Positions 4,851 through 53,783 of a stretch of 64,000 bases of DNA are shown piece by piece. The DNA lies in NCBI RefSeq assembly GCF_000003815.2, contig NC_049987.1:12112778-12176777 (forward strand), read 5' to 3'. The DNA is from Branchiostoma floridae (taxonomy: Eukaryota; Chordata; Leptocardii; Amphioxiformes; Branchiostomatidae). A program made the position numbers and the translations under genes. Below the pieces are notes generated by a model. The model had not been told where the DNA came from, did no database searches, and saw only the letters and a program-made list of their open reading frames with translations. Within the stretch, counting starts at the first letter, position 1. Every line of letters begins with the position of its first letter.

Positions 4851-4874
4851 TCCATTCTGCACAGCCCGGGCAGT

Positions 4875-7800
4875 ATGAAGAGGAAACATCCAGACCCAGA
4901 TGGTGACATCATCACTCCATCCTCCAGCGGGTTCAACCAAGATGTGGAGGGGTGTCCGTATCCTCTCTACTCTATCAAGAGGGCAGGGCCTTACTTGTTA
5001 GGTACACTATTAGTATTGCTTAGTTTTCTATCCTACAAAAGAAGCAAAATGTTTGATCTAACTCCTGTGTGATTTCAATATTTACACACATGATCTGTTT
5101 GTATATTAACATCTGTATTCAACATTTTGGCAGGTCCTAGACTTGGAAACTCTCCAGTACAGAGCATTGTGCAGTGCTTAGCAAGGAAGGAAGCAACTGA
5201 TGACTTTTACTCAATTAAGGTTTGTGTGGCAGATTTGTATAGTGATTTTGCAGTGATACATTTTACAGCATTTGAAATTGAAAAGGAGATCCCTATAATT
5301 ATGCCTATAATCTCATGTAGTCACGTCGTTATTGTCTCCTTGTTATTGCATCAGATCCTGACCCTGGAGGATGGCAGGAGAGAGACCCAGGATGACAAGC
5401 AGGGGAAGATGTTACTCCACACCGAGTACTCCCTACTGTCCCTGCTGCATGATCAGGAGGGAGTTGTGCATCATCATGGACTCTTCATGGTGACTTGCTC
5501 TGTTTTTTTTTAATGCATTTTATACCCATTAAAGGTGGCCTTCATGCCTTTTGACATATTACATCATAATCTTCATTATATCTTCCCCAGACCTTAGAGC
5601 CTGTCATGCCTTTTTACATAGAGCGTAATCAGTCGTTTTGATTCTGTTTACGTAGCCAAATTGCTCAAAGTTAGAGATCATCTTGCAGTCTACATCAAGC
5701 ATACTTGGCATCTGAACTTTGAATAAAGCAAAGATAGCCTCCGTGAAAGTAATATGCTAGTAATATGTACATGTACATGTAGCTGCTGCCATTTCTGAAT
5801 GCAGCATGGAGAGTTGACAGTATCTCACCATGCAGGCCAACATAAATCTATAATTTTTGTCATTTTATCAGAGTAAGGCATTATGTTTAGCAATGTAATT
5901 ATACAAGAAACAACAATTTATTTATCTTTCTTCATCACACATGAAGGACAAAGCATGGGAGCCGCCCACAGATGCCTCCACCAAGCAGCTCGCAGACCGA
6001 CCCGGCAGGATCAGGAACCGGTTGTGTCTGGTTCTGGACTGCCTGTGTGCTCACGACTTCAGCGACCAGACGGCAGACCTCATCAACCTGCAACATTACG
6101 TCATCAAGGAGAAGAAACTGTCCGAGAAGGAAACCATTGTGATCTTTTATGACGTAGTCAGAATTGTGGATGCACTACACAAGGTGAGAGTGTATAACTT
6201 TTTGAACATTGTATTGTGAACATAAATGAACTGATTTTCAGAACAAATAGAATAATGTATAGAGGCAGCACTAGCTTTTCTAAAGGACATTTTATTCACT
6301 AAAAAGTGGAGATGTCATCAGAAATGTTTTCTGGGAAATAAAGAGCATACAATAACTATTCTTTTTTTTTTTCAGAAAAATATTGTTCACAGAGACTTAA
6401 AACTGGGCAATATGGTTCTTAATAAAAGGTGAGTACATAAAGTACCTGTATACGTATCAATTTGCATCAAGCTGCCACACATGTTGGAGGTCAACTAGTT
6501 TTCTCTCAAGACTATTGTAAGTTTGATCATCTCAAATTGCTTCAATCAATTTTCTTAAGTCTCCACTTATCATAGATGGCCAATTTGTTTTTCAACTGAG
6601 CTTGTCCCCATCCCAAGTCTACTAGGTCTTAAAGAAAAATCTACTGTTGAAGAACAAATCACTGAAATGCATTTGTCTATAAGAAGAAGTTCCAGGTATC
6701 TAATTCTGCAGTGTGATCTGTTTGTGTTGTAGAACCAGAAGGGTGACCATCACTAACTTCTGTCTGGGGAAACATCTGGTGTGTGAGACAGACCTGCTGA
6801 AGGACCAGCGTGGGAGTCCTGCCTATATCAGCCCTGATGTTCTCAGTGGTGAGGAGTGTTATGTAGCATGTTCATACTGGAGAACAGTATTATACACATA
6901 GTCCAGTGTTAATCGATCATGCTTCTGGCCTAGGAAGTCATGAGTTCAAATCCTAGCTTTTGCCACTCGCCAACTTGCACACGACAGAGTCACGGTCCTT
7001 AGTAAGGAATGTTAAGCTGTGGTCCACTGTTTATTGTACTTGTTAAAAAGAGCTAATATAATCTCTCAGGCACAATGAACCTGTAAAGTACTGTACATAG
7101 TGTCTGTCTTCTTTGTCACAACCAGTTGGAGAGCTGAGTTGATTGAGCTAAACTGGTTTGAGATCACTTTTAGTTGTCACTTTCACCTCTGGCACATGGC
7201 TTTGCTAGGTAGATAATGTCGTCAGGGGGACAGTCTAGTATGGGGCTAAAACAAAGTAATACATGAACATGGATTGATTATAATCATACTTGATCATACA
7301 AATATACATACAAAGTTTACCAGCGGTAGTGTAACATCTAATTAGGTTAAGGAAGGTCATTGTTGAAAATGAGTATTGAAGAGACTTGTAGAAATGTCAT
7401 TTCCCCCTGTGCAGGCCGACCGTACCTGGGCAAGCCCAGTGACATGTGGGCGCTGGGTGTGGTGCTATTCACCATGCTGTATGGACAGTTCCCCTTCTAC
7501 GACAGTGTTCCTCAGGAACTCTTCAGGAAAATCAAAGCTGCAGAGTATAATGTACCCAAGTGAGTGATGTTTGTACAGTGCTTTTGAAATATACATATTG
7601 TATCAAGGAGTATTGCAAGAAAGGGTGTCAAAATTAGCATGATCTTTAGTTTTAGGTCCTTTCCATCCTCTTCATTATAAACCTACATGTAGTCTGATGG
7701 TACACTGGAATCTGGCACGCCGTATTGTCCACCGGAGTGGAAAATATGGAAAATGCTTTTTTTTTTTTGATACTTTTTATCAGTTTGCTTCAATTAAATC

Positions 7801-10985: not shown

Positions 10986-11192
10986 ACAACTTATCTATTG
11001 TTTGTTTTTTTTACAAGTGGCAAGTTTGTTATGCCAATTAAAAACTTCTGGCAAAACTACTCATGGATGCTGATGATACCCTTCTTCTTGGTCAATACTG
11101 GAAACATCATAATATTTGCCAGTACTAACCACACAAACTGCTTTTATGTAATGAAACTAAGGGGTCTGTACTTCAGCTTCTTTTGACAACTC

Positions 11193-12822: not shown

Positions 12823-15800
12823 CTATGGTATTCTCACTGACTGGATCACTTTGGCTCCCTGCAAAAAAAATCAGAAAAAATAAAAGTGTTTCAAGATTCT
12901 CTGCTTTTAGTTACATCAATACAATCAAGATTCTCTGCTTTTAAAGTTAAAGACAGGAATGTTCAGACAGTTTCAATGAAATAGTTAAAACATACATGTA
13001 TAATTACTAGAGTTCACCTTTACCAAATGACGTTACCTTTTATGACTGACACGTTATAAATCTTTATCATTCTATCTTGGCAATGAAGGCTATTGTAGCC
13101 TTTTCTTTGCAGTTATGTAACTGACAGGTTCTGGAGTTACCCTGTCTACAAACATACACACAAATGGTATCAAAAACAAAAACGAAGGTAACAATAGAAA
13201 CAAAAAGGGGAGTGGTATCAGAAGACACATTCTCCAACTATTTCCATGGAACCACAGAGTGTATCCTCACCTCCACCTCTCTGTTACTGAGAACGCCCCT
13301 GATGGCCACGATCTGGTACTGTCTGTGCTTCAGCCCGCTCATAGTCCTGCGCAGCACCCTCAGCTGCGTGCCCGTGATCTTCCCGTGGGCCAGGGGCTCG
13401 ATCTGCTTGGGGTTGTGCCCTGGGTCAAAGATGAGAAGCCTTCCACTACCATCAGCATGTTCCTCATAGCCAATGATGGTTCTACTGTGACCTGTAAAGA
13501 ACATGATAAAAGTTGATTGTATACATGTTCATTTGAGTATGATAGCATATTTAAAAGTAAACAGAAAACAATGTGATGCTCTACATTATTTGCACCATAA
13601 TTCTAATACTGATACTTGAAATATTTCATAACAATACAACACAACGTGTCTGGTTGAACATTTGCATTTCACAATAGAAGGGGATTTTTGAAGTGATTCA
13701 AGTTTGCAGTAAAGTTGAATCAATTTTGCAGTACACTGTAGTAATGCATTAAAAATGTCATGAATTCGTAGTGGAAAGATTACTGCAAAAACCTATAAAA
13801 AAAAAAAGAAGGTAACACGAGCATTTCAACAGTCACAGAATCTTCAACTATGGATACAGAATCTGACTTGCCCCTGAATCTGTGGAGAATTTTGTGGTAT
13901 ACATAGTATTTCTCTAACTGAAAAAAAATGAAGAGTGGTCAGACCTTGGTGCTGCAGGTACAGCGGGTGTTTCCCTCCGGCCCCCTCCTGCCGGAAATGG
14001 TTCTTTGTCCAGTCAAACAGCTGAGGGTGGGAGCCGTCTGCAGCTGTGGGGTGGTGGAAGTCAACTACTTGTGCTCTGGAAAAGAAAACAGCAAAACATA
14101 AGTGCTTTAGCTGTATTTTCCTTGTAAGGTACCATAATAAAACTATCCTCAATGCTCATTCAAAAGGGATCCAACAATAATTTCAAGCAACAGTCTAGAA
14201 TATCATATCAAGACTGATCTTTCACTTAGGTAAGAAAAACAACTGCTAAAAACCAATCGAGTGAATTAGATATGGCAAAATTGGCATCAAGAGATTTTCA
14301 GAATTAATTCTACAACCAGCATTGTATATACTGTTAGAAGCAAGAAAGACCAAATATTAAGTATGTGGTCAAAGTTATTCAACACTATTACAAGACTTCC
14401 CAGCCAATAAAACATTACTGACCTTACTCCTAAGGAAGAGAACAGTGCAGCTACTTCAGTGGCACCGATCCACTTTCTGGTATTTCTGAGTTTCCCCCCG
14501 AGCTGCTCGCTCCCCTCCCGGTCGAACCCCCGGCTCCACGCCTCCTCGATCATCTGCTGGATCTTGGGGATGGATGGCATGAATGAGATGCCTGCAAAAC
14601 AGTGGGGAAGTCTGTTCAGCCTCTTTCAACTGTGACTATTATCTATCTACTACTTTATGCACCGCATAGTATGATCATTCATAGTGAACCGATGCATATT
14701 CTTGAACTCTCTGCTTTGGATTAATCATGTTAGACATGTTACAGTATACAAATTTTACAAGCCTAAAACTTTCAATGTGATACCTTTAAGAATACATACA
14801 GTTCATTTTTATACGCGCTAGAACTTTCATCTTGTTGTCTACAATATTAAAGTCTAAGAAGAAAATCATATGTACTGACACAAGCTACACAGGTTAGTTT
14901 ATTATTGAAATTGAAATCAGAAATGTCTACAAACACTTGGACTGTTTAGGATCAAGTCCTGATCTGTTGCTACAAGTTATAATTAAGAAAAAGCAAGCTA
15001 CTAAATATAATAAGCAACTGCTGCTGTAAGAATTCGATCCTGGACCAACATTGTACTAATCTCTCCTCACTTTTGACGAGTACATCTCTATAGGCTGGAT
15101 CTCTGAAGAGTGCTGACAGCATCATCTGGATGTTCCTGTATCCGCAGCCCCAGCCTTTATCCCCCCAGCTGGAGCTGAAGTGGTCCACGCTGGCAGCCAG
15201 GAACACCTGCCGGACACCATAGATCCCAGAGGCATAGGCAGCACGCAGTCTCTGCACAATGCCTGCAGAGACCAGCATAGGAGAGTCTTACTACAGCTCA
15301 CAGGAATACCATGGCGCAAAGTTAGGAGGTGAAAAGACAGTTAGTACTAGCCTGGATGACAGACTGTCTTCAGGGCCTACACAGGCCAAATCCCTGGCTC
15401 TTGGGGGAACATGACCCAAAGAAAATTCTATATTATGCCTCCTTGAGTTAGACACATAATAGCATGATCAATGTTATTGAGAATGATATTATTGAGATCG
15501 TGCTGGGAGTCTTGTATCCTGGTTACAGCAGTACACACTAGCAGCTTAACGTCATACTAGCAGCTTAAAGTTAAAACCGAAACTCCAAAACTGAGTAATG
15601 GTGTACCATTCAATCAACTAGCAAGAATTTCAAGACAGAAGTAAAAGATAATTATCTTATTCTTAAAACAAGTATTCACAGGTTAATAGAACACAGACAA
15701 AAAATCCTTGTCACTATATATGAAGAGAATGAAACAACAACTATTGTATTACTGGACAGTGCTGGCTCCCACACAAAATACAGTCTACTGTACCTCTCAC

Positions 15801-18202
15801 ACAAGACTTGCCGTCGTCCTTTCCTGAGCTCAGTGTCTGCGCCATCTCAGCCTTCTTCTTGTGGTACTCCATGGTGCTCATCTGTCCCCTCGCCACCGCT
15901 CGCTCCATGTGGGTCATGGACTGGCTGCGATAGTTCCCCTGGTTATCCATCCCGTATCTCGCCTGTTGGAGGAATGGACTTAAATCTTATACGAGTGTAC
16001 TATAACTGTAACATACCACAACCAGAATAAAGGAAAAGGAATGATGTATGTTACTATATATGATATCACAGTTGGAATGGGACCAGGGCTGCCTCCAGCT
16101 TTAAACTTTATCCTGCCCCACTCATCGCTTGGAGGCCCAAGATGTTCATTTTTCTTGCTCAATCTGTCATTTTAACCATATGAAAATTTTCTTTTCATCA
16201 ATTCTATGTCATGAAGTTTGCTTTTTGGGGGTAAGGGTGTAATTTTTCTCCGTCCCAAAAGTTGAAGTTTTGTCCTAGGACAGCCCTGAATGGGACAACC
16301 AAACAAACAGAATACTTACTTACTTGATACTTGTTAAGGTCTACTACTACTTCTGCTACTGTAAAAGTGTGGTAACAACATACTTCTTTATAGCTATATT
16401 TGTAGCTATCCTTAGTGTTTAACATAACTAGACTTTTTATTGTTAAGAATGACAAAACTTTCTTTGTTGTAGATTTTGGGGCAGCAATTACCATTCAGCA
16501 CCAGGGACAGAGCTACACTGATTGGTCTAAACATAGATCCTTGATCTAATCATACAGATGGTACTTTGTCTAAAACGTTCAATACCACTGGGGCTAATTG
16601 AAAAATTAATACAGAGATACAAAGGTAAAGGATAATAACCTGGAGTCTTCTGAACTCCTCTTCTTCTCTCTGTTTCCTGCGCCGAGTCTCTGCCTCTTCC
16701 TGTTCCTGCAGCTGTGCAGCCAGGGCATGGTCAGAAAGCTCTGGGGATAACAGAACAATGGTTACAGATAATGATTCTCAACTAGAAACATACCTATCAT
16801 TCAGGTAGATAAAGTGGATTTGTGATGATAACAAGTATTATCTATCAGTATTATCACTTCTGGATAATCTTTTTAGCTAAGTTGACTTACCGGTAATTGA
16901 TAGATGATTTGATATGTAGATTTTGGGTGATGGCAAATACAACTGAGAACTACTTGGAACATCATGGACATGTTGCATGAATTGTGTGGCAGAGACAATA
17001 CTGTACTTACCTCTCTGTTCTTCCTGGAAATGCCCTTCCACATGTTGTGCAAAGAGGTCCCCCTCCAGTCCTTGCAGCCCACACATGGGGCACACCGTGT
17101 CATTGTCGAACTGTGCCATGTTGGATGGCCCTGCCTTCTCAGGACTCAGCAGGTCTGCATGGGCCCTGTTTACATGAGCATTCAGATCCACAGGAGGAAT
17201 GCCCCTAATGTTACAGAACGGACAACCTATCTCTTCATCCTCAATCCTTGATGCTAGGGCACCAAGTTCACTGTCAGTTATGTTGATGTTGGCCTTTTGC
17301 TCAGACGTTTTCATGATCTTACTCTTTGGGATGTCGACCTTCTTGTGAGGATTTCCAGTCTTGGGTCCAGAATGTACCTTGCCATTTTCCCCATTATGCC
17401 ATGGGTGTGGGTTGCCATGGTGAGGGTTTCTTGGAGAGGTATTTTCCTGATTTCTGTTGGAATATTTGATGATGGACTCTGGGGATAGACTTTCGCTGGT
17501 ACTAGTGGTAGGGGAAGAATCTGTGGACAGACCATTCTTTGCATACTGCGTCATAGGGGAATCTTTCTTTCTGGGGTTTCCATGACTGTCATTGTTGAGT
17601 TGTACATGATTATCATTTTCAACGTCATCATCACTATCACTAACATATTGCACGTCACACTCTTCCAACCGCCTTCTTTTGTCACTACTTCCTTCAAGTT
17701 CCTCCTCTGACTCTGAGTCTGCTGCTAGGGTGCCATTGTCTGACCAAGATTTACTCTTCACCACAATCCTTTCTCTTCCTTTTGCACCTAGGTCCCCATC
17801 ATCTTCACTTCCTTCATCATTCTCACAAACACTCATTCTGAATTCTTGGTTTAAACAAGCACCATCCTCTTCTTCTAGTGACAGTGCTCCATCCTGTCTA
17901 AAGCAACTGTCTCGAGTGTCTGATGTTTCCTTTTCCTCCTCAGTCTTTTCACCATTCCTCTTCTCTCTCTCCATCTCCTCATCAATGAACATGGCCTCCT
18001 CCATACCAATGTCCATGTCATCTGTGTGTACCGTGTTGATGTGGAGCTCCATCTCATCATAGCTGACACCGCCCAGGGTACAGAACGGACAGGAGATGGT
18101 CTCCTCCTGATGTACCACCACCATGTGAGACCTCATGTCAGGGTCAGTCAGACCGTCCTGTCCACACAGGGCACAGGTGTACAGCACGGGCGGAGCTGCC
18201 AT
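12823..18202 (-). CDS. ZUP1: ZUP1 (ZUFSP) zinc-finger ubiquitin-specific protease, complete
   Basis: Eight coding exons in phase (minus strand): 18202-17011, 16740-16640, 15962-15794, 15262-15071, 14591-14423, 14075-13945, 13491-13271, 12858-12823; product 736 aa (human about 578). ZUP1 is a cysteine protease that cuts long K63-linked ubiquitin chains in genome maintenance. Four C2H2 fingers are visible: about 10-31, 38-59, 327-348 and 371-391. An acidic, low-complexity linker (about 60-320) separates fingers two and three and explains the extra length. An MIU-like helix (SDHALAAQLQEQEE) follows at about 400. The C78 papain-like domain keeps the catalytic Cys in GWGCGYRN (C527), His in GHSRT (H653) and Asp in FDPG (D674), plus WIGATEV and QHQG. 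The last coding exon is only 11 codons plus stop, ending in IP as in human. A 5' untranslated piece runs to an acceptor at about 18233. Confidence 0.95.
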
Positions 18203-18779
18203 GGTGATGATAGGGTTCAGGCAGTGTAGACTACTTTTGTGGGGGAAACAACAACAAGAAATTAGGATAATTGTATAGATTACATATCAGGTGTCATAAT
18301 TGGTAACTTGAAGAAGGGCAAGCATGTCTAATTTGGGATTTTTTCCGGAAAGAACAAAATGGCTTTTTAGTCACCAGGACAACTTGGCAAAGCCCACTTG
18401 GCAAATTCATGACAAAAAGATGAAGACCAAACCAATGAGGTTTGATCATTTCTTGACAAATGTAAACGTAATCTTGTGATTTGTCTCACAAATTTATAAA
18501 GTTATAGCATTACATAAGCCATACTGAACACAACAAAACTGACTAAACGTTCTTGATGAAACGAAAACTTCCTCTATTAAAAATCTGGGCCACCTGCAGC
18601 TGCACCGACCCTCCCACACCATCTGTGAAAGTTTATCAACAAAAATGATGGATATCAACACAATCAAACTATATACCTGGAACAAGACACTCTGACAATT
18701 TCCTTCCGGCTGCGAATTTAATATTTGCCATCGATACGCACGCAGTAGTTTGAACATGCACAAATATGAACCGGGAATT

Positions 18780-22400: not shown

Positions 22401-22695
22401 ATAGTAAGTGATCTGTGTTACTAGTGGTTTCAAGAGTTTTACTTTCCAGAATTCTGTACCGCTTTTTTTCAATGAGGCAAGTCATGTTTCTTTTATCAGC
22501 AGACTGATTTACAAAGGAAGAGAATATTTTCAGACAGTGTGCCAATACTATAAATATATTATGTAAGAAATAGTTCCACCATAGATAGAAACAAATTTGA
22601 TACTTAGTACCCACTCTAGTTTCAAGGATGGCACGAGGGTTTGTGTTGTGATGTTATCCTGAAGACCTATGATCTGATGGACCCTTTTATTTCAG
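19421..22695 (+). other. First intron of importin-alpha gene
   Basis: No coding exon is recognisable. It contains a short dispersed repeat at 21235-21281 that recurs at 30218-30264. Confidence 0.45.
21235..21281 (+). repeat. Dispersed repeat fragment (copy at 30218-30264)
   Basis: ctgtatctatatagccg, then ataacc.cc.ttYggcg and taacacaccag are shared with the second copy. Both copies lie in importin introns on the same strand. Confidence 0.65.
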
Positions 22696-22703
22696 AAGTA
22701 AAG

Positions 22704-25700
22704 ATGGCATCCTCAGCAAAGGAGAACTCTCGAATGAAGAGCTACAAGAACAAAGCACTGAACCCGCAGTGGATGAGACGAAGACGTGAGGAGGAGGGGG
22801 TCCAGCTACGCAAACAGAAGAGAGAACAGCAGGTAAATATCCATGTCCTGCCTGAACCCGGAACTAGTTTGAACAAGACAAAAAATTACTGTCGTTGCCA
22901 ATGTTCATTTCCCTGTAGTTAAACTCTATAGTTGGTCACTGCAATCATTTTTTTTATCGTATTTTGATTGTTTTGCTGCTGAAAGTTGTGAAAACTTGTT
23001 CTATTTTCTACTCCAAAAGAACTGCTGCTAGTATAATTAGAACAGGCTTTTCAACATGCATGGTCTTTGGTTGCCATAATTTTAACTTTAAAGTTTAATG
23101 TCTGCACAAATTCCCTCTGGTGTGAATCCTTTTACTGATGTTTCGCGGTAAAAAGTGTCCGCCAGTCTGCCATATGCAGATAACAATAATGATTTGTCAC
23201 CCACCCTGGATTTAGCAGACGTCTGACAATAACCAATACCCATATATGTTTGGTCATGCTACTGAGCAGACAGGGTAGAGATATTGATTCTTTTTGCCAG
23301 GGAATTTTTGACACCCATCTTTGATAACTTGCCAGTGGCATGTGAGCATGTACCAGACACTGCATGATTGATGTGCCTGAAACACCCAGAGATTCCGTTT
23401 CGGTTGACATTTAAAAAAGACTAATATATTTGCGCTTCCATTATTGTACGGTATTTAAAATCATTTTGGCAATAGTATCTGTAATCTTTATGACTGGTAA
23501 CAATGGGATATGTGACGAAACCTATGGGCAGCTTTCTACTTTCTTACAATGTTACAATGTTACATACTTAAGGGAATATAGTGATAACTCTCTGGTTCAA
23601 AGCTTGACTTGTGATTTATGGGCATGTTTTCCGAAGAATGAAAGGATAAGATAAAAATAAAAAATACCCTCTTGGGCTCTCTTAAAAACCTTAAAGCTAC
23701 ATCATTCATAGTCAAAAAGCCTTGGTGTCTACATGTTTGGGAAGATGAAAGATAAACATCCTTTGAAGCTATCATACACATCCCTACACATCTTCGTAGC
23801 CTGGAGGGAAGTTTCATAGACTTGCTTTAATCATTCTGCCCAGCTTGTCATTTCATGGTGTCTGCAAAAAGCCATGACTGCCTGTAGGCATCAAGCATAT
23901 ATCAGTGCATTATGGCAGTTATAGAATTTGTTGGTTGAACATGGAACTCACTACTCAATGTGATTCACTGTAATTGTTTTGGTAGTCATGAACAGCACTT
24001 TTTCTATTACACATCCTTATACTTATTTTGCACCAATTTCAATTTTGTGTGTATAATATATATTTGAATAATTAGAACTAGAAGGTAAACTTTGCACCAT
24101 GGTTTGAGGATAATAAAAGACAGTTAAGATAAACCATTCTAGAAATTGTGTAACTATGACAAGAGGAAACTACCAGTACAAATTTTTACTACAGAAATAA
24201 TTACAAATTATTGAAAAACAAAGGAATCATAATCTATAAGGAACCTTGATTCAAAATGACAGGCTTCACTTCAGTTTGACTGTCAACATTGACCCATCAA
24301 TTTTTGTTTTATTAACAGCTGTTCAAGCGTCGTAATGTGGACATCCCCGCAGATGACAACTCCCCTGGGATACAGGAGCCCTACATCTCCTCCTCACAGG
24401 TAAGCCTTCATCCACAGACAGATGCTTCCATCCATGAGTACAATCTTGCTGCAAGATTGAATCATTTTCAAATGCCAGTTTGTAGTTGCACAAAATGCAT
24501 GTTAATGTATGTAAGTAAAACACAACATCATGTATCCTTTTTGTACAAGAATATAGGGAGTATCTGTTGGAATGGTAAATAGGAAAGACTGGTGAATATC
24601 GATGTTTTGTATTGGTAGCATTATTGTCAAAGTTGGATAAAGTGCTATAGCATTTCCATAAATTTTTTCTCAATAATTTCACTTAAAACATCTCTTGGAC
24701 ATCAAATACTTTTATGTTAATAACTACAGATACAAGTTTCATAGCTAAGATATGACAGTCATTTGTAGGGCTGTTGCAAAAATGAAATTGGGCTGAACCA
24801 ATGATCATAGTGTAAAGAACAAAAACAGAGAGCGAAATTCTGAACTGGAAAACATTTTTTCCATATCGATTACTTGCCCTCCCAAATCCTCTCTGCAACA
24901 GCCCATTTCATGGCAGTTAGTTGTCTTCCCTCCCATCACAACTTCATTAGTCTTGATCAATATCCTTTTTTTGTTTGGGTTCTCCTCTACCAATTCTCTG
25001 TCTCCTGTCTACTTCCTCGTGGTTGTGCGTGTCTTCTTGCGGTCTGTCTGTCCGTCTGTTCTCAACGGGACTAACTGGAACCCACGCGGTTGTTCTTCGC
25101 TCCTCCACGGGGACTCCCCTGCCCGCGCAGGCCCCAGTATTCCCCACTTCCCCTCTGTACTCACCCACACTGGAGGAGGTAAGTTGGAAGTGTAAAACTA
25201 AAGTCATGTCTTTTTATTTTAATACTTAATCTGTAGTATAAATCCAAATCTGTATGACATCTGTTTTTATACTATACCAATCAAAAGGTGTTGGATGAAC
25301 CTAACAGTTTGTGTGATATCTGGTACCAAATCGTACCACTAAGAAGTGATTTAATTGTTTCTATCAAAAGACTTGCAGCGTTTCTCACTTACTTATATAA
25401 TTGATAGTTTAAAAGTGCATGGATTGAGTGGTGTTCTTTGTGTCCTGGTACTATCTTGGTAGCCACAGCCTCTCTACCTTTCTGGTTTCTGTTCTTCTGC
25501 TTCCTTTTCTTTCCTTCGTTTCTTTCTGTGCGTCCTTTCGTCACATTTATGATTTTGTCATTCACTAACATAATCTCTGCTGTATTTGTGACAAATGTTA
25601 CATGATGTATTGGTGTGTATGTTGAAATTCATGCTTATGCAAAAATGTCTTTTTCTTCTAGTTCTACAAAGTTTGATTCTGCTTGTTTAAGTGTTGTCTA

Positions 25701-37530: not shown

Positions 37531-37723
37531 TGAGCCAGATGTATTCATGTCTGCCATTTGTTGTTTTATCTACACTAGTGATCGAACATAGCATCAGAAA
37601 AGCATCACTAATGTAGGATTTGACACTTTGAACATCATATTAGAGACTCCTGTTTTGAAGGTTAAGAGAAAGACTCAGAAATAGCACAAAAGAAGCAAAC
37701 AGACCAGAAATCCTCAATACACT

Positions 37724-39379: not shown

Positions 39380-39976
39380 CTATTTCTCTGCTTCTGCTGC
39401 TGCCTGGTCTGCCATCTCCTTCTGCTTGTCTGCTCTCCTCTGCAGATTTCTCTTCAGCAGGGACTCCCCTCTGTCCCGCTCGGACCGACCCCACATCGCC
39501 ACTCCAAATGCAGACACGAAGGTCAGGATGACTAGCAATGTTGACACATACACACGCATCTTGTCTTTGGCAGCTGTCAGCTCATCATACCTGCAATACA
39601 GCGTAATGACTATGCTGATAATAATAACTAAAAATGCCACCATGTGCCAAGGAAACTGCAAATGAATATAGACAATCTTTAGTATAACTTGGTTTCATAA
39701 TCACATTTGCTTTGACGCATGATTGTACTACTTTCTACCCCAGTAAGGAAAAGCCAGGTATCCAAAGCTACTGTACCTGCTGAGTCTCTTTTTTCCTCTT
39801 CACACAGGATGAAATGCACTCGGCAGCTATAAATAATACCAGCCTAAGTAAGAAATACTGTTAAGTTATTGTTACTTACGAGACCTCTTTTGGGATGTCA
39901 GCTTTAGATGGGTAGCGGCCTGTGAAAACCAACATCCACTTCTCCTTGTCAGTAGGCATAAAGCCAGGCATGCTGC
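39380..39976 (-). CDS. FAM162: FAM162 (HGTD-P-like) mitochondrial protein, C-terminal two exons
   Basis: Two minus-strand exons join in phase: about 39976-39880 and 39590-39380. The first encodes PTDKEKWMLVFTGRYPSK and an IPKEVS end; the second starts YDELTAAKDKMRVYVS. This matches the FAM162A/B core, where PTDWQKK...GRF...IPETVS is followed by AAKNKMR, one membrane helix and a basic-acidic helix. Here the helix is about STLLVILTFVSAFGVAMW, followed by a charged tail ending AEAEK. Human FAM162A is a mitochondrial protein linked to hypoxia-induced apoptosis. The acceptor of the upstream exon is uncertain (39976 or 39982), and the N-terminal exon with the mitochondrial targeting sequence was not found; the assembly gap at 40435-40534 lies where it could be. 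Divergent from MIX23. Confidence 0.85.
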
Positions 39977-40434
39977 CTGCAGCTGTGGATGAGGAAGGAA
40001 ACAGTGCCATGGAGTGCCTTGATAGCCTGGTTATAATCTCCAAGCAGATCCTACAGTCTACACATGCCTTGATAGCTTATTGTAGTTCCAGTCTACTCGA
40101 ACGACACCCAGAGGGCTAACACTTTGAAACCACATTTTGTATGGAAGTTTTCTGTCACAATCTTTGACAGATTCTGCAATGCCTCACCTATATAAGAGGG
40201 CATGACTATCCAGGTTTCTAACATCTGTGCTGTTGTAGTGTTCAGGCCATATGATATTTTATTAAGCTCCCTGGAGCCAAACGGTCATGGGATTGGTGAG
40301 GTGAGGCGAACGTTATAGAGGTAAAACTGCCTTCCCCCCAAGTGATCATGCCCAATATAAACAAGTACCGGTAAATGGCTAGTCAGAGTTATAATAATGG
40401 TGACAGAAGTCCTTAGTCAATTAAATGGCTAGTC

Positions 40435-40534
40435 NNNNNNNNNNNNNNNNNNNNNNNNNNNNNNNNNNNNNNNNNNNNNNNNNNNNNNNNNNNNNNNNNN
40501 NNNNNNNNNNNNNNNNNNNNNNNNNNNNNNNNNN
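40435..40534. other. Assembly gap of 100 N
   Basis: A run of exactly 100 N, a conventional gap size. The left edge carries a short repeat (taaatggctagtc at about 40375 and again at the gap edge), so the break may be a collapsed or unresolved repeat. It falls between the FAM162 exons and the MIX23 start. Confidence 0.98.
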
Positions 40535-41189: not shown

Positions 41190-41240
41190 AGCCTTGCGCA
41201 CTAACCCAGTGCGCAGTTTTCAAGACCAAGATGGCGGCCC
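41190..41240 (+). promoter_or_regulatory. MIX23 promoter-proximal motifs
   Basis: TGCGCACT (41195-41202) and AGTGCGCA (41208-41215) form an inverted repeat resembling paired NRF1 half-sites. The start codon lies in caagATGGCGGC (41227-41238), the form of a YY1 site overlapping a start codon. Both motif classes are known in promoters of nuclear genes for mitochondrial proteins; function here is inferred. Confidence 0.4.
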
Positions 41241-44200
41241 CCAGTGGTGAAATTTCTGTGACCTGCGAAGATTTCTTGGAGTTTCAAGTGAGTTTTCGGA
41301 CGTCTTAGGTGTTCAAAGTGTATCGAGAACAATGGCATTGCTATTTTTGTACTTGCCATGTTTGTTTTACAAAATATTATGGACGTTCGTGAAGTGAAAA
41401 CGGTTGCATGATGAGTATCATTTCATGCCCTTCCCCACATACACATGGCTAAGACTAACGTTACACAAGGAGATTATATAACCTCCTTGGACTACAGTAG
41501 AAACCTCAATGATTTTGTTGGCCAGGGATTCATCCTTCGTATCAAAACCATGATTTCAGCCAATGAACTAGCAATAGACAGGTCACACGGGCTTAGGTCT
41601 AGAAGTTGAAGCACAAAATATTATAACTTATAATAGTTGTATAAGATCTTTTCAAGATTTCACTACCACTGTATTGTATGGTATGGTATGGGCCGACTAC
41701 TCTCTCTTCGCAGCCAGGGGCTGGATTGCGAGGAGCTTACAATAAGCGGGGCTAAGTCGTAAGGGTCTGAAATGGCAGCCTGTATACAGCGCCTAATGAC
41801 CTCAATACGACAGTAATTACCCCAGGTGCGGCCAGGGACTGTAGGTTTTGAACCACTCACACCGCACCATGTCACGTGTGGCGGGTTCTTTAACGTGCCT
41901 GGGGTATGGCTCTCTCCAGACACAGGACCAAAATTTTACGTCCTATCCGAGGTTTTATGCAGTGGTGACAGGAATTGTAGGTTATATGTCAAAAGGTAAA
42001 GGCCCCCTATTACTGTACCGATTCCGAAGACTGTATGCTTAAAAATGGAGGAAGGTCCGCTTTCTAAGAGGACTGTATGCTTGAAAGTCGAGGCCTGTCC
42101 CTATTCGATTGGTCAGGGTGAGACAGCTTTAAGCAACACATTGAGAACATAAAAGCTTGGTAGTCTCTTAGAATTTACCCATTCAACAACAATGACGTCA
42201 CAGTTACTGTAATTTAAGGATTGATCTTAATCATAATGAAAATGTTCTTTTCCACCACAGGAAGCACTGAAGAAGTACCGCACCATAGATGACAAGATTG
42301 TGTACCAGCTGAACACTGCTATCCCCACCAACTCCTTTGCAGACAAAGTCAACGCAGGGACACAGTGCAAAAGCCTTCATGATGAGGTGACTTTTATTTG
42401 TCATAGAAAATGCCATCTTACATAGATTCTGTGCTCAAAATCCTTTTACTAGCCAGGTAGCCCAGGCAACAACCCAAGTCAAAAGACAGGTTGCACTATT
42501 AATAGTTCAGGTTGCCCCACTTCCAAGTTATTACTTCCTTCAAATCAGCTACTTGTCCATTATCTTTTCTTCCAATCACTTGTAACTATATATGTTTTAT
42601 GTTAGTTACAGAAAAGTGTATGCATGTAGGTAGGGGAAAAGCGGGGTAAACTGCGCTACCTTGGTTTAGAATTAAGTTGCATGAAGCATAATGTATTTGC
42701 ATTTGCAAGTTAGTGTTTCAAGCACTGCATAGATTGATATTCAACACATATATTATTCCTTTGGTAAAAAATGTCATTGTAAATTGAATTTTGTGTGCCC
42801 TAATCAGTTCAATGTCAACCGTAATGTAAACATTAAACACACTGCCTTAAACTTAAAGCTAATATGAATTGTTTTTTTTTCTATCTTTTTGCCAGCTGTC
42901 CCAAGGACATGTCCAGCGGGAGAACGCAATAAGGAAGTGTATCCACCAGACGTCTCAACAGGTGGCCAAGCTGAGGGAGGCTCGAGAAACTGACCAAGAC
43001 AACATCCAACTTCTTAAGCAGCTCAGAAAGGAACAGACAAAGGTAGTATTTTTAGATACTCTTTAGAGATAACAGGATTGATTCATACTAATCACAGCTA
43101 ATGGATTATTCTCATAAGAGTTTATCAAGCCAAGCCGACCCTGGGATAGAACTAGGCCCACAGATCCAAGGAATTGGATCTAGATGGCCAAGCAGCGGGG
43201 TTGCTTAAACCGCTCGACCATGGAGACATGTCTAGTAGTACCGGGTAGTACATTTATGTTCAGGAAATCTTAATGTTATACTTTACATTAGATTTCAATT
43301 ATTTTGTGCGACTATTATTTACAAGTCTCCTTCCTACAACTTCCAGACACATAGATACCTTAAGGCCCCCTCTCACTTGACGTGCGGCACGCTTGCGGCA
43401 TTGCTGCGTTCGAAAACGCAGATGTACCCCCACGGAACCTAGAGGTGCCGCAAACAAACCTAGAGGTGCCGCAAGCAAACCTAGAAGTGCCGCTTGCAAG
43501 TGCGACGTTTTTTTAAAAGTTTAAAAATAACGCAAGTGGCAAGATGCTGCAACAGTGCCCCAACGGTGCCCCAACAATGCCCCCACAGTGCCGCCACCAT
43601 GCCCCAAACAGTATCAAGGATATATTGTGCCTATTTTACACCAAGAATCAAAAGTAAACATCCTTTTATTACCGAAAAACTATTTTAGATGCATTTCTAA
43701 TAATTTTACAGCGGTTTTGGATCCAGTAAAAAAATTGCGAATTCCACAAAACTTACCTTGTATCCGTATTCAGAGTTAAGTTAAAAATACATCTTTTGAT
43801 TTATTTAATGGATTCTATACTTGAAAACAAAAAATAAGTAACTGGTTTATTGATTAACCTACGGATATAGAGAAAAAGATTATCGTACAACATTCAAATA
43901 GAAATTATTTATGTTGGATGATAACGAGTTTGCGTTTGCGTTATAAGGTTGCAATCATTGCTGGTAGCCTGCCGCCGATAAAATACAAAATTGCAGTCAT
44001 TCGGACCGATGGGCCATATCTTTCTCACTTTTTACAAATATGATAGACTTAGACATCAATAGGCTGGCAAGCCATCCGCAGACAATGAAAATACTCCGCG
44101 TCATACAAAAAAGTATGAAATATCAAGCATTTTCATTTTAAAAATTTGCAAAATTGGTGAATAAACATATAAACATACATAATCACACATAACGTTACAT

Positions 44201-45189
44201 GGTGCAAAACGTACACATCGATTCAAATCTGGTATATGGTTCGTGTCCGTTCATTTGGGTCATTTCCTTTACAGTAAAAGTCTTTCAAGGTTATTTATAG
44301 CATATGTATCATATAATTCATTATCATAAGGGAAATCTTTTTCATTATAAATCTCATTTTGGGGCATTCTCATCATTTTACAGTGATTTTTAATAAATTG
44401 ACAACGCTGCAATTGTCAATAACATGTTCATTTAGTCTAGAAACGCAACAGTGCCCCACGTCAGTGTGAGTGCAAGACAAAATCGGTGAAATTAACACAA
44501 CAGTGCCGCAGTGAACGAACGCAGCAATGCCGCAAGCGTGCCGCACGTCAAGTGAGAGGGGGCCTTTAGTAGTATTACAAATTATGTCTTGACTGCATAA
44601 CATTTTTTTTATTTTCACATTCCAAGACTTGTTGTCAACTATATATTTACCCAATGCACTGTGTTTTAAGCCATCCCCGTGTATCCTTTTCCCCCAGCTG
44701 AGGTTAATGCAGCAGGAGATGAACGTGGAGGAAGTGGTCAGGGACAGGTCATTAAAGGTCAGTCGCAACTTCGTCTTCCTCAGAATTTCAGCCATTGAAT
44801 CAAGTTGCCAAATTTCAGACATGAAGTGTAGAATACCATGTGTCACCACCACCAGTTGTTTCTGAGGCGTAGACTATTTCCTTAGATCTCCTACAATTCT
44901 GGATTCTATGATGTTGTATGATGTGGATATACATCTAGTGTTATGTCTTGTAATATCTTAGGTCCAATTGTTTTGTGGTTAAGTGGTTTGGGTAGCTTAA
45001 TTCCTTCCTACTTTTATTTGAACCATGTTGCTTAACCAAGGTTGCTGATACAAGTATTGAGTCAGAGTTTTATATAGCTTGACATTAAAAAGCCATCTGA
45101 GGAAGACCCTTACATCATCATGTGATTTTTCCTTCCAGATTTTCCAAGAACGTTGTCGAACATTCTACAAACCACCTGCCTCGTCCTGA
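41231..45189 (+). CDS. MIX23: MIX23 (CCDC58) mitochondrial intermembrane-space protein, complete
   Basis: Five exons in phase: 41231-41287, 42261-42386, 42896-43042, 44698-44757, 45139-45189; 146 aa (human 144). The order MAAPSG, CEDFLEFQ, RTIDDKIVYQLNT, QCKSLHDE, LLKQLRKEQTK, EMNVEEVVRDRS and ERCRTFYKPP matches the human protein throughout. It is an alpha-helical protein with cysteines at about 12, 55, 76 and 136, in line with the CX(n)C intermembrane-space class to which MIX23 belongs, where it is reported to support protein import. Intron 3 holds a tRNA-like sequence and a 1.2-kb transposon, intron 1 a dispersed repeat. Confidence 0.96.
41683..41960. repeat. Dispersed repeat, MIX23 intron 1
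   Basis: The segment with gggccgactactctctcttc, ccccaggtgcggccaggga, gttctttaacgtgcctggg and cgtcctatccga reads like a high-copy repeat I recall from lancelet and other marine invertebrate genomes. No ends or target duplications were found. Assignment rests on memory, not on a search. Confidence 0.4.
43126..43235 (-). repeat. tRNA-Leu/Ser-like pseudogene or SINE head
   Basis: On the minus strand ggtcgagcggtttaagc is a good type-2 tRNA D-arm and A box, and ggcctagttctatcccaggg resembles a T-arm and B box. The distance between them allows a long variable arm. A clean acceptor stem is not evident, and the T-loop reads TTCTATC rather than TTCRANC, so it is scored as a pseudogene or SINE head, not a functional tRNA. 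Confidence 0.45.
43363..44565. mobile_element. 1.2-kb non-autonomous PIF/Harbinger-like transposon
   Basis: Terminal inverted repeats of 50 bp (43363-43412 and 44516-44565) are exact, starting AGGCCCCCTCTCACTTGACG. The flanking TTA is duplicated (43360-43362 and 44566-44568); a 3-bp TWA duplication is the Harbinger signature. No transposase frame remains. Just inside the left end are three 21-base copies of cctagaggtgccgcaaRcaaa (about 43438-43499) and further gtgccSc words at both ends. Lies in MIX23 intron 3. Confidence 0.8.
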
Positions 45190-45975: not shown

Positions 45976-48900
45976 TTAGGTCTCTTGAGCAGAAGGTTCT
46001 GAAGACTCAGTTTTTGCCTTCTTGGCATTCTCCTTGTCGCTCGGAGCTTGTCTCTTCAGCCCCTTCATCTTACGGGTCTGCAGCTTACTGAAGTCCTGTC
46101 TCTCCATGTGGACACGCCCCATCTTAGCACCAAACACGTCTGTCTTCACATTCTTCACCTTCTTAGGCTGAAACAGAAAGGAGACGTCTTCAGAAAAAGT
46201 GGATAACACATATCACAAACACACCTATGTTTAACAAGCACCCTACATGCACAGCCTTCCTCTATGCATGATATGTCAGAAGTCAGAACTGCCATTTACA
46301 AAACCAAAGGGCCTTCATAGTACATGTAGTAAACAATGCTCCAGTACAAAAACAGCTCAATCTACAATCTATTGATCATAAAAAAGGTTGATGACAAAGA
46401 TTCTGTTTCTCTACTTTTTTTATCACTCATCATCAGTAACTTGAGTTTACAAAATGGAAGAATTTTATAAACAGAACAGTATGAGTGAAATTTTTCTGCC
46501 ATGTATTATGGTTCACTTCTAAAGGACAGATAGTTGAATTCTATACCTTGCCCTTCTTTGGCTTCTTGCAGGCCTTTTTGTAGAGGTCATCTGAGGCCAG
46601 TCGTGTTCTCCGAACCTCCAGGTCCAGCGCAGGGCCGATCTCGGACAGCTCGACACGGGGGGTACGGCTTCCGGACTTCTTCAGGAGGACTCTGGGGGGC
46701 AAACACAATGTAGATTACAGAGGTCACACACAATAGGACTACTCATATATACTCTACAAACACCTCTTGGAGTTTGTGACAAATGTTCAGTGTTAAAGAA
46801 CCTAGACAAGGGACCAGTTAATTACTGCTCCATGGAAAATCAAGCCACAACAGTACACAGGCGCTGGAACTGACATAGAACAATTTGTAAGCCTTTTCTC
46901 AAACTGCATATTTCAGAAGTCATCCCATCTATACTAGTATCCTGCAGTAGTAGCCTGTGTTTACACAATCTCTCACTAACCCCCTCCCTGGGCGGCGGCA
47001 ATTGTAGGGCCAGCTGCTAGGGGCGAGATTTTAGTCAGGGTCAGGCTACCTGCAGTAGGCAATGTGGCTTTTTGACCCACCGGTCAGCAACCATCAGGTA
47101 CTCACTTGTAACTCCTGACCATGACCTTGCCGTCCAGTGCTGTGAACTGCAGCACATGTTCCAAACCCTGCAGCCGCACGTTGTTGGCCTTCACACCTCG
47201 GAAAAAGTCTGGGGACACAAAAAAACAGCTTTTGTAAGAGAAAAACGCCTCTCTCAGTCTCTGTCCACAAAGCTCCACAAATATCTCCGTAAATGAACAT
47301 GAATTACAATGGTCATTTCCAACATGATTAGTTTAATCAGGCCCACCAATCAGCATGTTCTTGAGCCTCCTGTGCTTGTGGTCCTGCTCGAAGGCCTCCC
47401 CTTCAAACACCAGGCAGGGCTTGGTTCCCATGGCAATCTTCTCTGTAGGGAAGTCCTGCATGGACCTGAAGTGGGTCACGCCCAGCTCTACCATGTCTAA
47501 CACATGGTGGTCATACAGGCGCCCTGAAATACACACAGAGTACTTTGTTTTATTAACTGCGACAGCTACTCTTCCAAGAGTAACAAATTACACAGAAAAC
47601 ATTGACACTAGGCATAACATACATAGCATACAACATTACAACATCCCACAATACGCGACAATCCAATCTCGTTGGGAGGTCTCGCGAGACTGTAATCTGG
47701 CCGCGCGCGCGCGTGATTTGACAGTCGGACGGTAACAGCCTTTAGCAGCCCAGCGGCTAACAATGGCTTCTCCCAGCATCGACTCGATCGAGTCAACTTC
47801 AGAGATTCGTTGTGCTATTATTTGGCAACATCCGCCGGTAAATCGGCATGCCATGAGCAGATAATATTGTTGTGAACCTATGGACTCGATATCGTGCTGT
47901 AAATTTGCAAATTTCTGGTCATTTTCACAATTTTTGACGGGCGGTTTATGCTTGCTTGTCGTGAGAAAAACGTGCATATAGGCGCGTCGCCTTACTTGTA
48001 GTTACTCGGATAAGTTTGGCTCAAGCTGTAAAAATATCCCACAAAAGCTTACAAGTACCATCATTGGATCCTTGTAGATCCAAACTCGTAAGACTTTCGG
48101 CGATTTTGACCGTAAATTAGTCGATGGCAACATATCGGCCTTTGGGAGTTTACGCGTACGTGAGTTGGGGAGGGGGGCGTGTTTCCGTGTTCGTTTTGAT
48201 CAAGACGGGGTCACTTTTCCGACTATGTCTATGATTTCAGTTTTCGCCGGATGAAACTCCACAAAAACGTGAACATATCGATGTAGGGTCCTTCTGGGTA
48301 GAAATCTAGCATGGTTTCGGCGGCTTTGTGGGCAACTTTTTATTGGTTAACTTCATACGTGATGAGTGGGTGTGTCTGCAAATGTATAACGTTTGGCATT
48401 TGCTGTTCTTTTTCAGATCAACGCGTCGCGATCGAAATTCACATCATCAGGGAAATACTACAAATCATATGGATGCAATAGCCGTATTTCATGTTTTATA
48501 AAAGATGTCTTAACATATGTTCTTACTCGATCTCGTAGAGCTTTGCAACTCATGCTTTTGAGAAATGATAATTACATGTATATATCATTAGTGTTTTTTC
48601 CTAATGATAGACAAGTTCTCACAGCATTTACAGTATTGACGAAAATAAGCATCCGATAAGTAATACTTTTGGGAAATGGTAATGTTTCATACACATAATC
48701 ATTCAAATGTACATTGTATTAAAATGTGAACTTTCAACATCTCTGACTGTTTTTGTGTGGCATAAAATGTTTTGCAACAAATGAGACATCGTCCTACTCA
48801 GACCTAAGACAGGTAAGCCGTAAGGTGTCCACTTCCCTGTGCTATACATAGTAGTCCACTGTATTCTGCCGATGCAGTGGTCTGGACACTCTGCATCAAC

Positions 48901-51859
48901 AATCAGTCTTTCTTCATACATACCATAGAGTTTCTTACCTCCTTTGGCTCTTTGAGTGAACAGCTCCGGTAGTATGGCTGTTTTGTGAAAGTGGTCAAGC
49001 TTTGGGATATTCTTCTTCTGCCATTCTGAGTCTACTTTAATTCGTTCGCAGAATAAATTATCCCTGCAAAAGTAGACAACGAAGTCCGCCCAATTTAAGT
49101 TACAGCAATAGACATTCCCTTGCACTTGGTGGTGGTACCTGTGTGACGTCTTGAGTGCTGCATTGCTGTCTACCTTTGTTCTTTGGACTGCCTATTTTAG
49201 CGTGAGTCCTTTCTTTGAATGGGGACACAATGAATACACGAATGCGTTACTGGAAATACATGCAGTAGATGTACACATTTCCCGTTAAAAAGTATAAAAA
49301 CGCACATTTCTAATTTCATGTTCATGGTGAAATTATCCCTTCCGAGCTGTCTTTTTACCAGACAATCCCAGTGCTTAAGTAACGTGTTATCATCAAGTAC
49401 ATTTGGGGGGATCTTGAAAAATATGATGCATGTTGGCACTTTCTCTTCATTGACACACTTGGACTGACGGCTATTGCATCCATATGATTTGCAGTATTTC
49501 CCTGCTGATGTGAATTTCGATCGCGACGCGTTGATCTGAAAAAGAACAGCAAATGCCAAACGTTATACATTTGCAGACACACCCACTCATTACATATTAC
49601 GTTAACCAAAAAAGTCGGCCACAAAGCCGCTGAAACCATGCTAGATTTCTACCCAGAAGGACCCTACATCGATATGTTCACGTTTTTGTGGAGTTTCATC
49701 TGGCAAAAACTGAAATCATAGTCGGAAAAGTGACTCCGCCTTGATCAAAACGAACGCATATACGCGGAAACACGCCCCCCTCCCCAACTCACGTACGCGT
49801 AAACTCCCAAAGGCCGATATGTTGCCATCGACTAATTTACGGTCAAAATCGCCGAAAGTCTTACGAGTTTGGATCTACAAGGATCCAATGATGGTACTTG
49901 TACGCTTTTGTGGGATATTTTTACGGCTTGAGCCAAACTTATCCGAGTAACTACAAGTAAGGCGACGCGCCTATATGCACGTTTTTCTCACGACAAGCAA
50001 GCATAAACCGCCCGTCAAAAATTGTGAAAATGACCAGAAATTTGCAAATTTACAGCACGATATCGAGTCCATAGGTTCACAACAATATTATCTGCTCATG
50101 GCATGCCGATTTACCGGCGGATGTTGCCAAATAAAAGCACAACGAATCTCTGAAGTTGACTCGATCGAGTCGATGCTGGGAGAAGCCATTGTTAGCCACT
50201 GGGCTGCTAAAGGCTGTTACCGTCCGACTGTCAAATCACGCGCGCGCGCGGACAGATTACAGTCTCGCGAGACCTCCCAACGAGATTGGATTGTCGCGTA
50301 TTAGAAGTATGGCACTAACAACAAACAATCCTCATACAAAATATCATTTTATCGCAAAATCAACCATAAAGAAAGGATCTACTGTTTGACTAACGGTATG
50401 TTTAATAAAGGGTCACTGAACTTGCATTTGCCAAGAACTCACCAAGTACAAGGTTGTTTGGTCTTTTCTTGCTGTGGGAGCCAAACAGGAACAGGGAAGA
50501 GTCGTTTTTCTGGGAGAAAAACTCCTGGAACACATAAACACACAAGTCATGTATTTATATATTGTCACTGGCAAACAAAATGAGCTGAACAAATTTTATG
50601 ACAGGCATCACCATCACTGGATTCTTACAGGAGTGACAATATACTTATACAGTGTACTTACTATTGAGGACTGGTCATCAAATGGTCTCATGATGTTTTT
50701 TCTGCAACATTAGAAAACAAAATTGAAAAAAAAAAAGTGTCACAAAAGCCTCAGCATTAAAGAAGAAACTTTTTAAAAAAGACAAAGTTACTTATGACAT
50801 GAGTCAAATGACAATGGACCTACCTTTTGAATGTGATGGCATTTGGTTTCTTCAGTAAATACTGGAAAAAGACAAGAATGGAGATGTTGATAACCATATC
50901 ATAGTTCATTTCATCTGCTCTTTAATGGCTTTTGATGACATGAAGGTTTTGCCTCTTAAATAAGTTGGTTCAACAAAAAATCATCTTAAGAGGAATGGTA
51001 TATTTCATTTCTGGTAATGTAAAGGGTTCAAGGAAATAATTGCAAGTAACGTACCAGTTCCTTGAGCACCTGAGTGATAGTCTCACTGGTGTGTCCCCCC
51101 TTAATGAACATCGCCACCTTGTCATTCTCCTCCAACTTTGGCGCTCTCACCTCCAGCCCTCGCTTAGCTGCCTGGGTTTTCGGTTTTCTGCAGTACAAAA
51201 GGATTCATCATTATACATTGCAAAGGTTACCTTCACATTTTCTTGTGGACAAAAGCGCCTGGTGACCTAAATAACGGTGACATAAAATAACAACACTACT
51301 CCCTGGAATTGCCATTTATATCATTAGCATTCAGACAGGACAATGTTTGGAAATCCTTCTAACGTTATACCTTGAAATCTTCCAAAATGTATTGTAGACT
51401 TGTGCTTGTATGAAATAGATCTGGAAGATAATAACACATCTGGTGTATTATTTGCAGCCAGTGCGTTACATCACCAAGAAATCTGGAAAATCTCTTCTTC
51501 ACTGTGACACTAGTAACATTATGAATTGGATAGTCTTGTGCACTGTGCAGGATGACAAATGTTTCTTATTGTTTCGGGTTGTTGTGTATGTTCGTTGTTG
51601 TCAGACTTGGTGTTTATCATAATTTAAAGAGCACGTGTGGAAAAATTATAAGAGGGGAGGGGGGCACGCGTTAGACAGCCTGAAAAGAAGTAACACGCCG
51701 TTATCCTTTGACCCTATTCCAAAATAACTTTCTGGAAAGATCCTTTGCTGATCTAAATTATCTAGCTTTCATGTACATCCACATAAGTATCTGAACTTGT
51801 TAGAAACTACAAGGATTTTAAACAAGTACTTACACGATTCTTTGCATGACGGTCGCCAT
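45976..51859 (-). CDS. RPF2: RPF2 ribosome production factor 2 homologue (Brix domain), complete
   Basis: Nine exons in phase (minus): 51859-51834, 51187-51055, 50861-50824, 50701-50662, 50524-50443, 47523-47347, 47208-47106, 46691-46547, 46167-45976; 311 aa (human 306). RPF2 works with RRS1 to bring the 5S RNP into pre-60S ribosomes in the nucleolus. The Brix domain shows KPKTQAAKRGLE, IKGG, NIMRPFDDQSS, SLFLFGSHSKKRPNNLVLGR, YDHHVLDMVELG, GTKPCLVFEG, DFFRG and SYKVLLKKSGSRTPRVEL, all in human order. The lysine-rich tail includes GRVHMERQDFSKLQTRKMKG, nearly as in human. Intron 5 (47524-50442) is enlarged by a 2.65-kb transposon; another intron holds a 98-bp MITE. The start is the first Met upstream of the conserved KPKT block. 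Confidence 0.95.
46951..47048. mobile_element. 98-bp MITE in RPF2 intron 7, intact target duplication
   Basis: Ends are TAGCCTG and CAGGCTA, and CCTGCAGTAG is duplicated at 46941-46950 and 47049-47058. The interior (ccccctccctgggcggcggcaattgtagggccagc) recurs in opposite orientation at 52543-52643. Confidence 0.75.
48703..49190 (-). pseudogene. YqaJ-type recombinase/exonuclease domain fragment
   Basis: The minus frame reads LKTSHRYHHQVQGN, then WADFVVYF, LFCERIKVDSEW, IPKLDHFHKTAILPEL. The order Y-x-x-QVQG, DFVV, ERI-x-x-D-x-x-W, L-x-x-F, LPEL is the C-terminal half of YqaJ-like nuclease domains found in many animal transposon-linked proteins. The nuclease's upstream catalytic acids are absent, so it is a remnant. 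The frame continues past the domain to 48703 and is open. Confidence 0.65.
49330..49535 (-). pseudogene. THAP-type zinc finger exon fragment
   Basis: After an acceptor at 49535 the minus frame reads GKYCKSYGCNSRQSKC, then IIFFKIP, LKHWDCLVKRQLGRDNFT. This fits the THAP start: C-x4-C, a phenylalanine-rich strand with FxxxP, then a W followed by a helix with R/K. The final C-x2-H is not obvious. THAP domains serve as DNA-binding heads of P-like and Kolobok-like transposases. Confidence 0.55.

Positions 51860-53736: not shown

Positions 53737-53783
<47 letters not shown>

Follow-up and report, generated by a model that had tools for sequence, protein, structure and literature searches.

A lancelet gene block with STK40, ZUP1, an importin alpha gene, FAM162, MIX23 and RPF2, and its probable relation to human segments at 6q22, 3q21 and 1p35

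In vertebrates, cargoes are partitioned among the import receptors KPNA1, KPNA5 and KPNA6, and for this reason the dating of their expansion matters. The lancelet has been used as an unduplicated outgroup to the 2R genome duplications of vertebrates (Simakov et al. 2020, PMC7269912); synteny is described there as conserved and the lancelet as free of large-scale duplication, and one lancelet segment is set against several human segments, each with a part of it, as is the case for the gene block reported here. That study is concerned with chromosome-scale linkage groups, whereas the present block is not named in its available passages. A second described system is the paralogy of human 1p34-35, 6q, 8q and 20. 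The pairs NKAIN1/NKAIN2 and RSPO1/RSPO3 are divided between 1p34-35 and 6q21-22, additional members of these families being located on 8q and chromosome 20, and in the available NKAIN, RSPO, KCNQ and RIMS rows the families of 1p34-35 and 6q have their other members on 8q and 20 rather than on 3q21 (PMC6585022). The authors of that study regard the region as 1/2/8/20 with the chromosome 6 members translocated, and they argue against whole-genome duplication and for small-scale duplications. The 1/6/8/20 quartet referred to below is our own reading of their table. KPNA6 (1p35.1) and KPNA5 (6q22) fall in the first two arms of this paralogy together with the paralogues HDAC1/HDAC2 and MARCKSL1/MARCKS, whereas KPNA1-FAM162A-MIX23 sits at 3q21, which is neither 8q nor 20.

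The window analyzed here is a stretch of 64,000 nucleotides of the Branchiostoma floridae genome (C9:12112778-12176777), located on a contig of 25.4 Mb that is referred to as C9. Seven genes were modelled from open reading frames and splice sites in this intron-rich animal DNA (Table 1). STK40, ZUP1, the importin alpha gene (KPNA), FAM162, MIX23 and RPF2 follow one another in that order within positions 4875-51859, the two ends being the model start codons of STK40 and RPF2. All six genes that the initial annotation had named within one 47-kb block were recovered by gene models, Pfam profiles and Protein Data Bank (PDB) matches. No paper describing this block was found in the open-licence literature, and the block is a new instance of a well-known pattern, namely pre-2R gene order with complementary vertebrate copies. 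It provides a compact and checkable case of tight gene order that has persisted from the time when lancelets and vertebrates diverged, and in which the vertebrate copies complement each other.

Table 1. Features of the 64,000-nucleotide window, with positions counted from its first letter
Feature	Position	Strand	Details
STK40 orthologue	4875..9970	+	10 coding exons; Pkinase 2.3e-36; PDB 5l2q STK40 2e-159
ZUP1 (ZUFSP) orthologue	13238..18202	-	Zinc-finger exon 17011-18202 and C78 peptidase exons
Importin alpha, KPNA1/5/6 type	22677..31115	+	13 coding exons; second in-frame ATG at 22704
FAM162	39380..40061	-	Two 3' coding exons, 39380-39590 and 39880 to ~40010-40061; PF06388
Assembly gap, 100 N	40435..40534	.	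Upstream of FAM162
MIX23 (CCDC58)	41231..45189	+	Five coding exons, all introns phase 0; PF09774 2.2e-15
RPF2	45976..51859	-	Nine coding exons, start codon at 51859; Brix 2.1e-51; PDB 8fl0 1e-99
Njmu-R1 (C17orf75) homologue	53076..55750	-	Partial model; adjoins RPF2; absent from the list in the initial annotation

Assignment of STK40, ZUP1, FAM162, MIX23 and RPF2 to their orthologues was made by profile or by best named match. PDB matches were reported by molecule name; the chains matched are human proteins. For STK40, the runner-up kinase in the PDB stood at 4.1e-33, far behind the best match, in a model with one uncertain internal junction (after HHGLF), for which the second-ranked site was used in the protein searched. 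ZUP1 was matched by Peptidase_C78 (5.5e-52), zf-Di19 (7.5e-10) and the ZUP1 structure 6fge (5.2e-98), and the Brix score of RPF2 rose from 145.7 to 175.1 bits after two short exons were added to its model. FAM162 (DUF1075, 1.5e-23) and MIX23 were identified solely by their Pfam profiles; no relatives of FAM162 were found in the PDB, and MIX23 had chance-level matches only in that database (best E 0.36). The upper end of the second FAM162 exon lies at ~40010 according to the model and at 40061 according to the reach of the profile match. A 5' exon of FAM162 was not found with the one candidate tried (41206-41359), which overlaps the first exon of MIX23 on the opposite strand; the construct containing it, in which the next exon was also short by a few residues, gained no profile match and scored lower (81.6 bits versus 83.7 bits without the candidate), and the candidate was therefore rejected. 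The 100-N assembly gap may contain the absent exon.

Five stretches of the window are free of gene models (1-4862, 9971-13237, 18203-22678, 31200-39301 and 55798-64000), and six-frame scans of these stretches returned no Pfam family at E 0.01; such scans could overlook a gene made up of short exons. Nothing in the window reached the gathering scores of Rfam, and no tRNA was found there. STK40 and ZUP1 are convergent, ZUP1 and KPNA are divergent with 4475 bp separating their coding ends, KPNA and FAM162 are convergent, FAM162 and MIX23 are divergent, and MIX23 and RPF2 are convergent and 787 bp apart. The orientations that had been proposed for ZUP1/KPNA, KPNA/FAM162 and FAM162/MIX23 agree with these models, and the human genes are probably oriented in the same way.

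The importin carries an N-terminal IBB domain (4.6e-27), Arm repeats (1.9e-95) and an atypical C-terminal Arm (Arm_3, 8.1e-25), an architecture that it has in common with the KPNA1/5/6 subfamily. Its best PDB matches were importin alpha-7 (KPNA6; 2.5e-247, 824.6 bits) and importin alpha-5 (KPNA1; 2.7e-239, 798.2 bits), and identity over the aligned part was 80% (372/464) with KPNA6 and 78% (357/457) with KPNA1. Unlike the subfamily with its three members, the lancelet yielded one copy of this type, which branches before their split. The phylogenetic tree included the window protein, the PDB sequences of KPNA6, KPNA1 and part of KPNA5, and two outgroups from fungi, a thin sampling in which two further KPNA1 chains were left out as duplicates. 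The KPNA5 fragment comprised 160 C-terminal letters, and three undisplayed residues in it were entered as X. The window importin was placed outside the KPNA1/5/6 clade with UFBoot support of 100 (five taxa) and 99 (six taxa, with the KPNA5 fragment). Grouping of the window protein with KPNA6 was rejected by the AU test with five taxa (p 0.0048) and with six (p 0.0018), as was grouping with KPNA1 (p 0.0039 and 0.0061, respectively) and with KPNA5 (p 0.016), a single arrangement of the other copies being tried per grouping in the six-taxon test. KPNA1 and KPNA6 agreed with each other against the window protein and Neurospora at 13 sites, versus 3 and 2 sites for the alternatives.

The expectation that the lancelet importin branches before the KPNA1/5/6 split was borne out by these results, and its converse, a grouping with just one of KPNA1, KPNA5 or KPNA6, was rejected in every case (AU p 0.0018-0.016). 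Judged from the protein sequences, the split appears to be younger than the divergence from the lancelet line, which dates the expansion relative to the lancelet-vertebrate split; the tree shows no more than that. The three possible splitting orders among KPNA1, KPNA5 and KPNA6 were indistinguishable (AU p 0.67, 0.48 and 0.48), so that no congruent topology was obtained. The higher score of KPNA6 relative to KPNA1 fits slower change of KPNA6, as read from branch lengths, and not closer kinship.

Copy number in the lancelet genome was estimated by profile searches of 513,431,437 bases in 431 contigs, and the counts are lower bounds. IBB (PF01749) was found in at least two places, the window importin and C9 at 7.17 Mb. 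Aligned pieces of the second importin alpha (7.166 Mb of the same contig) share 50-61% identity with the window protein, and we take this importin to be of KPNA2 type. PF06388 had two matches across the genome, both of them exons of the window FAM162 gene, and a second FAM162 gene was not found at the level of this profile search. This pre-2R outgroup accordingly has, as minimum counts, one FAM162 gene and one KPNA1/5/6-type importin gene plus one more divergent importin gene. Duplication younger than the split from the outgroup is indicated by the KPNA tree.

Published gene lists were used for the human and amniote maps. Human 6q at 113.6-117.8 Mb includes MARCKS, HDAC2, COL10A1, TRAPPC3L, RWDD1, RSPH4A, ZUFSP, KPNA5, FAM162B, GPRC6A and RFX6 (PMC4754774), and FAM162B, KPNA5 and ZUFSP are together on chicken chromosome 3 (PMC8130382) and on cattle BTA9 (PMC5070821). 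KPNA1, WDR5B and FAM162A lie on human chromosome 3 at 122.12-122.46 Mb with CCDC58 in an overlapping interval (PMC8809958); KPNA1, WDR5B, FAM162A, CCDC58, CSTA and CASR are named as proximal at 3q21 (PMC12869084), and chicken chromosome 1 carries the row CCDC58, FAM162A, KPNA1 (PMC12937304). Human 1p35.1 has KPNA6, HDAC1, MARCKSL1, LCK and TXLNA (PMC8269103), a gene list for the KPNA6 region of the pig is given in PMC6504931, and KPNA6 is the sole block gene in the accessible portions of these two lists. Three placements given in the initial annotation are in this way found in print, namely ZUP1-KPNA5-FAM162B at 6q22 and KPNA1-FAM162A-MIX23 at 3q21, each in human and chicken, and KPNA6 on 1p34-35, printed as 1p35.1. 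The available gene lists of PMC10103394 and PMC7205035 are unordered and give no position for STK40, and the accessible text of PMC11741684 on 3q21 yielded no gene placement. Just two of the three human loci carry at least two of the block genes tightly. STK40 is presumably at 1p34.3, ~4 Mb from the importin gene, and RPF2 presumably at 6q21, ~5-6 Mb from the importin gene. The chance of a given trio landing within six genes is 2.7e-7 in a naive random-order calculation, and chance is therefore dismissed as the origin of the two tight trios in human.

In our judgment these observations are probably best explained by an ancestral block of ordinary housekeeping genes, which the lancelet would retain in unduplicated state and in an order near that of the chordate ancestor. 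The chromosome with this block would have been copied in the vertebrate stem by large-scale (whole-genome) duplication, and the copies would then have shed different genes, the 6q copy retaining ZUP1-KPNA5-FAM162B, the 3q21 copy MIX23-FAM162A-KPNA1, and a third copy, at 1p35, KPNA6. Duplication followed by unequal gene loss would leave a different subset of the block at each human locus. STK40 (1p34) and RPF2 (6q21) would fit the same history at megabase scale only. The copying was presumably genome-wide, and 3q21 presumably belongs to the same quartet as 1p35 and 6q22. The earlier proposal that three human segments stem from one lancelet block therefore stands as regards the importin and both trios, is loose as regards STK40 and RPF2, and is tentative as regards the membership of 3q21. 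Its description of the window as an ancestor was wrong, this being the genome of a living relative that keeps the unduplicated state.

Human 1p35.1 and 6q22 share KPNA, HDAC1/HDAC2 and MARCKSL1/MARCKS (PMC4754774, PMC8269103), and 3q21 and 6q22 share KPNA, FAM162 and, beside the trios, CASR/GPRC6A (PMC4754774, PMC12869084). CASR and GPRC6A are related, and both are reported missing in amphioxus in the available part of a GPCR survey (PMC2246102), so that the pair is not traceable to one lancelet gene. Among the families shared in the accessible lists, KPNA alone was seen at 1p35.1, 6q22 and 3q21; three importin loci are known and no fourth was identified. The suggestion that the human loci form one paralogon is accordingly supported pairwise for 1p35.1-6q22 and 3q21-6q22 by the extra gene pairs, and the three-way relationship is one that we infer. 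Four marker families were also located in the lancelet genome, with OSCP1 on C9, the contig of the window, EAF on C10, and taxilin and AMD1 on C177 and C170, both of which are taken as unplaced contigs. The human site of OSCP1 is 1p34.3, beside STK40, so that its location on C9 speaks in favor of the shared history, and the human copies of EAF are at 3q13.33 and 3p24. Against a single three-way paralogon stand the position of EAF on C10 and the lack of 3q21 in the available rows of PMC6585022; the site of Njmu-R1, which we take to be at 17q in human, counts against the preferred account.

The position of EAF on C10 rather than C9, together with the fact that 1p35 shows only KPNA6 among the block genes in the accessible published lists, also agrees with a history in which one or more smaller block duplications and translocations, instead of two whole-genome duplications, gave rise to the copies of the importin and FAM162 genes, 3q21 being a displaced fragment outside the 1p/6q quartet. 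The same holds for the absence of 3q21 from the places of the families joining 1p34-35 to 6q, and for the small-scale duplications concluded by the authors, in the available parts of PMC6585022. We consider this history unlikely, though a serious competitor, because chicken already has the two trios on different chromosomes (1 and 3), which means that the event predates amniotes, and because CASR/GPRC6A, HDAC1/HDAC2 and MARCKSL1/MARCKS carry the paralogy past one small block. Far less credible is a secondary clustering, with the genes assembled within the lancelet lineage and an independent origin of the human linkages; it would suit the neighbour Njmu-R1, which presumably lies elsewhere in human, but it is opposed by the recurrence of ZUP1-KPNA-FAM162 and KPNA-FAM162-MIX23 in human and chicken, at a naive chance of ~3e-7 per trio. 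The extensive internal gene-order change described for lancelet chromosomes in accessible passages of PMC7269912 would also be in its favor. With duplication of an ancestral block and unequal loss as the preferred account, the question raised is which quartet includes the 3q21 importin segment.

The wider neighbourhood was surveyed over 100 kb on either side of the window using a codon-scored scan and a Pfam/PDB check. Matches of the scan within the window fell on known exons in 35 of 49 cases, and readings in the flanks are therefore treated as leads unless Pfam or PDB agrees. Such support was obtained for a protein kinase (read as TTK-like), the tail of a cadherin, a helicase (read as senataxin-like), and MYM zinc fingers together with DUF3504 (read as ZMYM-like), and an SFPQ/NONO/PSPC1-type protein was also recognized (SFPQ 1e-51); the names TTK, senataxin, ZMYM and SLC22 are our readings of domain matches. 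A TULP4 call was weak (5e-6, below its cut-off), and the MRPL19-like gene had no Pfam match. Human counterparts of the senataxin-like and MRPL19-like genes are assumed to be on 9q and 2p, sites that, like that of Njmu-R1, count against the preferred account. ZMYM-like MYM-finger pieces lie next to the SFPQ/NONO/PSPC1-type gene at C9 12.216-12.257 Mb, ~40-80 kb past the right end of the window, and a long reverse-transcriptase-like ORF of a retroelement is present at C9 12.2748 Mb.

Human ZMYM-DBHS pairs are presumably located at 1p34.3, 13q12 and Xq13, and on this basis the ZMYM and DBHS genes near the window could represent a second multi-way block of the same linkage unit. It is conceivable, although we hold it only tentatively, that the window is part of one chordate linkage unit with 1p34-35, 6q, a split segment comprising 3q21 and 13q12, and Xq13 as its post-2R copies, and not 1p/6q/8q/20. 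The counterpart of 3q21 is on chicken chromosome 1, as is that of 13q12, and such a grouping, if true, would explain the presence of KPNA1 at 3q21.

The observed/expected CpG ratio of the FAM162/MIX23 interval was 0.72 (slightly raised by the N gap), compared with a median of 0.38 for the window, and that of the 500 bp before MIX23, which are free of N, was 0.74. The ZUP1/KPNA interval had a ratio of 0.64 overall but values of just 0.29 and 0.24 for the 500 bp beside each gene, so a shared promoter is unsupported there. For the single pair FAM162/MIX23, the head-to-head arrangement, perhaps with a shared promoter, might have helped to hold the two genes together.

The Njmu-R1 homologue was recognized by PF15053 on three of the four pieces searched (3.9e-26, 3.2e-17 and, short of its cut-off, 7.8e-4). 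Given its presumed human site at 17q, either the shared neighbourhood stops at this gene or the gene has relocated. About four tandem copies of ~97 bp are present at 55126-55535 and hold part of a Njmu-R1 exon and its splice donor, which we read as a partial exon duplication. An inverted repeat in an intron of RPF2 (47650-48485 / 49467-50302) has nested arms of 541 nt (99%), 147 nt (95%) and 113 nt (96%), encloses ~1 kb and resembles a fold-back element, with CpG ratios above 1.2 in windows at this repeat. Another inverted repeat was located upstream of STK40 (3215-3419 / 4104-4308; 205 nt, 100% complementary), and an inverted-repeat element with arms of 95 and 65 nt (97-98%) was located at 59402-59599 / 60179-60354.
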